IMG/VR virus record: IMGVR_UViG_3300047564_001982
Location: 1 to 21,665 of that record
Reading direction: 5' to 3' (one strand)
Length of the DNA: 21,665 nt
Source of the DNA: a virus
Positions within the stretch are counted from its first letter, which is position 1; each line of letters begins with the position of its first letter. Below are positions 5,866 to 5,937 of this stretch, piece by piece. Position numbers and translations under genes: made by a program. The notes below the pieces were generated by a model that saw only the letters and a program-made list of their open reading frames with translations, did no database searches and had not been told where the DNA came from.

Positions 5866-5937
5866 ATGTGGACAAAGCCAACCGCAACCGATATGCGCTT
5901 CGGATTTGAAGTTACCATGTACATCATGAACAGATAA
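5866..5937 (+). CDS. pqqA: PQQ precursor peptide PqqA (23 aa)
   Basis: ATG at 5866 follows AAAGGAGAAACATT, a very strong ribosome binding site. The 23-codon product starts [10 protein letters not shown] and ends [10 protein letters not shown]. PqqA is the ribosomal precursor of pyrroloquinoline quinone: PqqE crosslinks a Glu and a Tyr in an ExxxY motif. Here Glu15 and Tyr19 lie in FEVTMY at the same positions as in 23-residue proteobacterial PqqA peptides. MWTKP at the front and a final Asn-Arg also match that family. No pqqB, C, D or E gene is in the window, so host enzymes would have to process it. It is monocistronic, ending 21 nt before a strong terminator. The likely benefit is supporting PQQ-dependent dehydrogenases in the infected cell (inference). 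Confidence 0.92.
   Translation: [23 protein letters not shown]

Follow-up and report, generated by a model that had tools for sequence, protein, structure and literature searches.

The pqqA locus

The window, meaning the whole stretch of DNA that was analyzed, comprises 21,665 nucleotides of the IMG/VR virus record IMGVR_UViG_3300047564_001982. Positions 5866 to 5937 on the plus strand hold pqqA, an ORF of 23 codons and a stop. In brief, the ORF starts with ATG and encodes a free-standing short peptide, within the PqqA length of about 22 to 29 residues, that has an MWTKP front and the motif G13-F-E15-V-T-M-Y19, corresponding to GxEVTxY with E-x3-Y spacing. The translation agrees with the first-pass annotation, which had pointed to Glu15 and Tyr19 in FEVTMY and to the same front. 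Comparison with the PqqA families, which had been proposed as a check, placed the peptide above the curated cut-offs of both the Pfam profile PqqA (PF08042; 41.1 bits, E 1.7e-10, cut-off 21.1) and the NCBIfam equivalog PQQ_syn_pqqA (TIGR02107; 39.3 bits, E 3.9e-10, cut-off 20). A six-frame profile search of the whole record gave a PqqA match with an E value of 3.7e-11. Judged by these profiles and the motif, the ORF is a bona fide PqqA.

A tblastn search for pqqB, pqqC, pqqD and pqqE gave no hits in the whole window, and pqqA is thus isolated from other pqq genes, as had been noted. We found no match for phage pqqA in PHROGs, and no relative of the window PqqA among solved structures. The gene was expected to be missed by gene callers, and it is indeed unnamed in every phage annotation examined. 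The record carries phage NrdA/NrdB, PAAR and tRNA genes, showing that pqqA is located in a viral genome and does not stem from host contamination. Complete cultured phage genomes carry the same pqqA gene.

The upstream neighbor of pqqA, on the same strand, is an ahpD-like gene of the carboxymuconolactone decarboxylase family (5238-5753; Pfam CMD, 46.2 bits). This is preceded, also on the plus strand, by genes encoding a GDSL-like hydrolase (4828-5241; Pfam Lipase_GDSL_2, 38.6 bits) and an ahpC-like peroxiredoxin (4268-4828; Pfam AhpC-TSA, 68.4 bits), both assigned by profile and synteny. The hydrolase gene between ahpC and ahpD is present in some relatives and absent from others.

The first-pass annotation had proposed searching related phages for the same short ORF between ahpD and a phosphatase gene. 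The position after ahpD was confirmed, as pqqA lies within 2.4 kb downstream of ahpD in 14 of 80 viral ahpD relatives, and within about 200 bp in 9 of those. On the phosphatase side, only 1 of the 80 closest phosphatase relatives has pqqA in its flanks, an observation that counts against the explanation we prefer below. PqqA above cut-off was found in 11 of 50 large records when the ahpD and phosphatase sets were combined. Going by the difference between the two counts of 80, pqqA travels with the ahpC-ahpD neighborhood, and the junction between pqqA and the phosphatase gene in the window is a mosaic.

Expression signals and the upstream palindrome

The Shine-Dalgarno sequence of pqqA, AAAGGAG at positions 5852-5858 (plus strand), is located 7 nt upstream of the ORF and was identified from its sequence and pairing energy. 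The pairing energy of -8.7 kcal/mol is tied with that of ahpC for the best among the 20 window genes tested, in line with the very strong ribosome binding site reported at first. Of 129 phage pqqA genes, 127 have a Shine-Dalgarno sequence. The gene also has a terminator of its own, as first described, in the form of an intrinsic-terminator-like hairpin with a U-run at 5957-5988 (plus strand). Terminators within 100 nt 3' of pqqA were found in 75 of the 129 phage copies, compared to 10.7 in shuffles. A scan for sigma-70 promoters 5' of pqqA gave 53 of 129, barely above the 38.3 in shuffles, and we therefore claim no pqqA promoter. It should be noted that a strong sigma-70-like promoter, TTGACT-17-TATAAT (11/12, with TG before the -10 element), is located at 5994-6022 (plus strand), downstream of the pqqA terminator and ahead of the phosphatase gene. 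TTGAC likewise follows the pqqA terminator in several relatives.

Between ahpD and the Shine-Dalgarno sequence of pqqA we found a palindrome capable of forming a hairpin, ACATACT-9 nt-AGTATGT, at 5816-5838 (plus strand). The palindrome is found 5' of pqqA in the window, in five first-set relatives and in others reached via AhpD, with loops of 5 to 9 nt in the phage group of the window. Of 10 records searched over their full length (up to 238 kb), 7 have it once, 5' of pqqA, and it was not found upstream of any of 132 host copies of pqqA. This 5' palindrome is specific to pqqA in the phage group of the window. The stem sequence varies: AAGTACT...AGTACTT in loci L176/L178 and L190/L192, where both members of two pairs have changed, and GTGGAA...TTCCAC in L137/L153, with pairing kept. 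Conserved pairing despite changes in sequence speaks for an RNA hairpin close to the 5' end rather than a fixed operator, a palindromic binding site being the less favored interpretation. The regions upstream of viral pqqA genes in general fold only modestly better than those of other genes, with a mean z of -1.0 versus -0.44.

Distribution of pqqA among phages

A tblastn search, using the window peptide against 50,697 phage records, gave 12 matching records. Nine of these are Methylophilales/Methylophilaceae phages, namely Venkman, MEP301, P19250A, MEP401, MEP402 and four Melnitz variants; the number refers to records matched, and the taxonomy lists further Methylophilales phages, e.g. MEP431-434. 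The matches closest to the window peptide are all in Methylophilales phages. The remaining three are the metagenomic podovirus ctXG6705 and two contigs labelled as Acinetobacter phage. In Melnitz-1 (L002, 4961-5056, minus strand) and ctXG6705 (L004, 2067-2195, minus strand) the annotation instead places a hypothetical protein on the strand opposite to pqqA. These antisense gene calls are probably spurious.

The Acinetobacter "phage MD-2021a" contigs are the only operon-bearing matches, and we rejected them as evidently bacterial. The contig that was examined, L005 (CAKLQF020000010.1), contains fur and ppk in addition to the full pqqABCDE operon, which is the basis for this assignment.

Scanning IMG/VR with a degenerate DNA pattern for W-x-K-P-x7-G-x-E-V-T-x-Y gave at least 120 stretches. 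A second scan, with the Gly13 codon restricted to GGA, brought the total to at least 225 distinct loci and at least 100 distinct peptides. Since GGA accounts for 15 of the first 120, the full number of viral pqqA contigs is, by extrapolation, probably near a thousand or more. None of the at least 225 loci has pqqB-E in its flanks, and host contamination was therefore rejected as the source of the viral matches. The alphaproteobacterial type of PqqA (EVTSY) is rare in viral contigs, with four matches.

Single-linkage clustering on shared genes lumped nearly everything, and the phages were therefore grouped by community detection, which gives an approximate number of lineages. The gene-sharing communities form around Venkman, ctXG6705, MEP301, MEP401, P19250A, Melnitz and the window, and several communities have no cultured member. 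Podo-, sipho- and myovirus-like lineages all carry pqqA, so that the gene is not a speciality of T4-like phages. Most loci share little with the window: in the first scan, of at least 120 loci, ahpC of the window was shared by 2 of 120 and its ahpD by 1 of 120. The other pqqA phages mostly have recombination or structural genes as neighbors, without ahpC or ahpD. As judged from this low gene sharing, pqqA recurs in unrelated phages.

Conservation and selection

The search pattern itself fixes some residues, and conservation was therefore rechecked in relatives found by another route, via AhpD. Glu15 and Tyr19 are kept in all 14 of these relatives, as required if the phage peptide is to be read as a PQQ precursor; Val16 is often replaced by Ile. 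Codon variation in pqqA among phages is mostly silent. For 105 distinct phage DNA sequences, pN/pS was 0.167 over the gene and 0.278 at the positions left free by the search pattern, with pS of approximately 0.65-0.69, i.e. silent sites near saturation. Phage pqqA is under purifying selection.

Host and phage type

The DNA of the window pqqA is closest to copies from Methylophilaceae, with about 81-84% identity across roughly 90 nt; copies from Methylophaga first appear at rank 58. From this similarity of pqqA alone, we infer that the host of the window phage belongs to the Methylophilaceae. The chromosomal PqqA of Methylophilaceae has the sequence of the commonest phage peptide or one close to it, and many phage peptides are identical to that of the host. 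We found pqqA in 149 of 150 Methylophilaceae genomes, in 1 to 12 copies. Of 60 genomes of this family, 57 have a PqqE that passes the cut-off, mostly as one copy. These counts agree with the published 3-12 pqqA copies in Methylophilaceae, where the other pqq genes usually are present as a single set (PMC4109929). For a phage without pqqB-E in its window, availability of these enzymes is gauged by PqqE (57 of 60) in the likely host family.

The window also encodes a tmRNA (10684-11067, plus strand) of the permuted beta-proteobacterial type (Rfam RF01850, 152.6 bits) with the tag ANDELFALAA. Sequences partly similar to it are found in Xanthomonas and Stenotrophomonas phages. The Methylophilaceae tag, ANDETYALAA, is unlike that of the window, which counts against our preferred explanation, and the beta-type tmRNA was dropped as a sign of a Methylophilaceae host.

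The nearest relatives of the window NrdA are those of Xanthomonas phage X1 and Stenotrophomonas phage Moby, suggesting that the window probably derives from a large, T4-like phage. Nine tRNA genes (Ser, Leu, Val, Ser, Gly, Asn, Met, Gly and Cys) are located at 186-3594 and 7848-7925. Three ORFs on the minus strand (763-957, 2485-2808 and 7725-7982) lie across tRNAs and probably do not represent real genes. The ORF at 3687-4130 (plus strand) matches the C-terminal domain of malonyl-CoA decarboxylase (PF05292, 33.1 bits), which is unexpected in a phage; its product possibly has an acyltransferase-like fold.

Comparison with known systems

The orphan PqqA encoded on Methylophilaceae chromosomes belongs to the same family as the phage peptide and often has the identical 23 residues. 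Its gene, like that of the phages, is often a stand-alone unit with a Shine-Dalgarno sequence and a terminator, away from pqqBCDE. The window gene differs in being viral, in a few residues and in its palindrome, absent from the 132 host copies. In the pqqABCDE operon of the Acinetobacter contig L005, pqqA likewise has a strong Shine-Dalgarno sequence, but pqqB-E follow directly after it, whereas the viral loci are without pqqB-E.

Phage PqqA is already known, and novelty is limited in this respect. It was reported in 2020 from Lake Baikal for VP_266, a population of T4-like phage from metagenomes that was assigned to Methylophilaceae, and the role proposed there is the same (Coutinho et al. 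2020, PMC7678222). The first-pass annotation had noted no standard annotation for the gene in T4-like phages; phage-borne PqqA is, however, not unreported. VP_266 and VP_139 also encode methanol dehydrogenase (PMC7678222), whereas 50 other large records with pqqA gave no gene for this enzyme, a further point against our preferred explanation. The Baikal study reports one representative sequence; the present count is at least 225 contigs, plus nine records of cultured phages. The open papers on cultured OM43 phages that were searched (PMC9004378, PMC10580990, PMC8024684) make no mention of pqqA. Relative to the literature searched, what appears to be new is the wide spread of pqqA over phage lineages, its lack of annotation in cultured phages and the 5' element.

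Proposed function of phage pqqA

PqqE and PqqD cross-link a Glu and a Tyr of PqqA, and PqqB and PqqC finish PQQ, the cofactor of methanol dehydrogenase. One PqqA is consumed per PQQ, so the peptide, and not the enzymes, is what a phage gains by supplying. We infer, with good but not full confidence, that phage pqqA is an auxiliary metabolic minigene, and that its supply of precursor sustains PQQ for the methanol dehydrogenase of the host. In brief, transcription of pqqA would give a short mRNA that starts with a hairpin, carries a strong ribosome binding site and ends at the gene's own terminator; the 23-residue PqqA would be translated from this mRNA. PqqD/PqqE of the infected methylotroph would cross-link Glu15 to Tyr19 of the phage peptide, and a host protease, PqqB and PqqC would finish PQQ. 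The extra precursor would raise PQQ and keep the PQQ-dependent methanol dehydrogenase, the main energy source of the host, loaded during infection, to the benefit of the phage. Feeding of host PqqB-E, the function suggested by the first-pass annotation, is in keeping with the gene content of the likely hosts.

In an OM43 strain, no transcript is more abundant than that of xoxF (PMC5120137), and in acetic acid bacteria PQQ was raised by overexpression of pqqA or pqqAB (PMC7936290). Together with PqqA being a consumable, these results make it plausible that a phage supplies the peptide alone as a PQQ booster. It should be noted that the hosts already have several copies of pqqA, so that one more might add little, which counts against this explanation.

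Alternatively, the phage peptide may yield PQQ as a redox-active antioxidant against oxidative stress in the infected cell, with methanol dehydrogenase not being the main target. In the phage group of the window, pqqA follows just after the peroxide-defence pair ahpC-(GDSL)-ahpD, as seen in the 9 of 80 ahpD relatives with a distance of up to about 200 bp, and PQQ is described as an antioxidant (PMC10864529). Most other pqqA phages are, however, without ahpC and ahpD, as the first scan showed, and all cultured carriers infect methanol users, which makes this alternative unlikely.

We regard it as highly improbable that the peptide acts as a decoy or competitor, sequestering PqqD/PqqE and lowering host PQQ, or that it is the precursor of a product other than PQQ. 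A peptide without its enzymes could in principle titrate PqqD/PqqE, but all relatives found without bias via AhpD retain both PQQ-forming residues and the motif around them, and in many phages the peptide does not differ from the host substrate; for a competitor there would be no need to retain such residues. The least credible explanation, already disfavored, is that of a passenger, a piece of host pqqA brought in by recombination and functionless in the phage: phage and host copies are similar in DNA (about 81-84%) and the host copies are likewise stand-alone units with a Shine-Dalgarno sequence and a terminator, but the low pN/pS at saturated silent sites, the recurrence in many lineages and the 5' element specific to the phage group (0 of 132 host copies) all argue against it.

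Precursor supply for host methanol dehydrogenase thus being the preferred explanation, we also put forward a more far-reaching form of it, which is possible although we lean slightly against it. Here, pqqA would be a near-universal, overlooked core gene of otherwise unrelated Methylophilaceae phages, a self-contained high-output minigene that is kept because the PqqA peptide, at one per PQQ, limits how much energy methanol can yield in the infected cell. It may also be phages that account for the spread of the additional pqqA copies found in hosts.

The finding makes it possible to test whether the limiting factor in PQQ supply is the PqqA peptide and not the Pqq enzymes, and cultured phage-host pairs for this already exist: Melnitz or Venkman on H5P1, MEP301 and MEP401. 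Methylophilaceae, such as OM43 and Ca. Methylopumilus, are abundant methanol consumers in the sea and in lakes. If their phages routinely carry PqqA, viruses would act on the first step of methanol oxidation, and would do so by means of a gene that is too short for standard annotation and lacks a PHROGs match.
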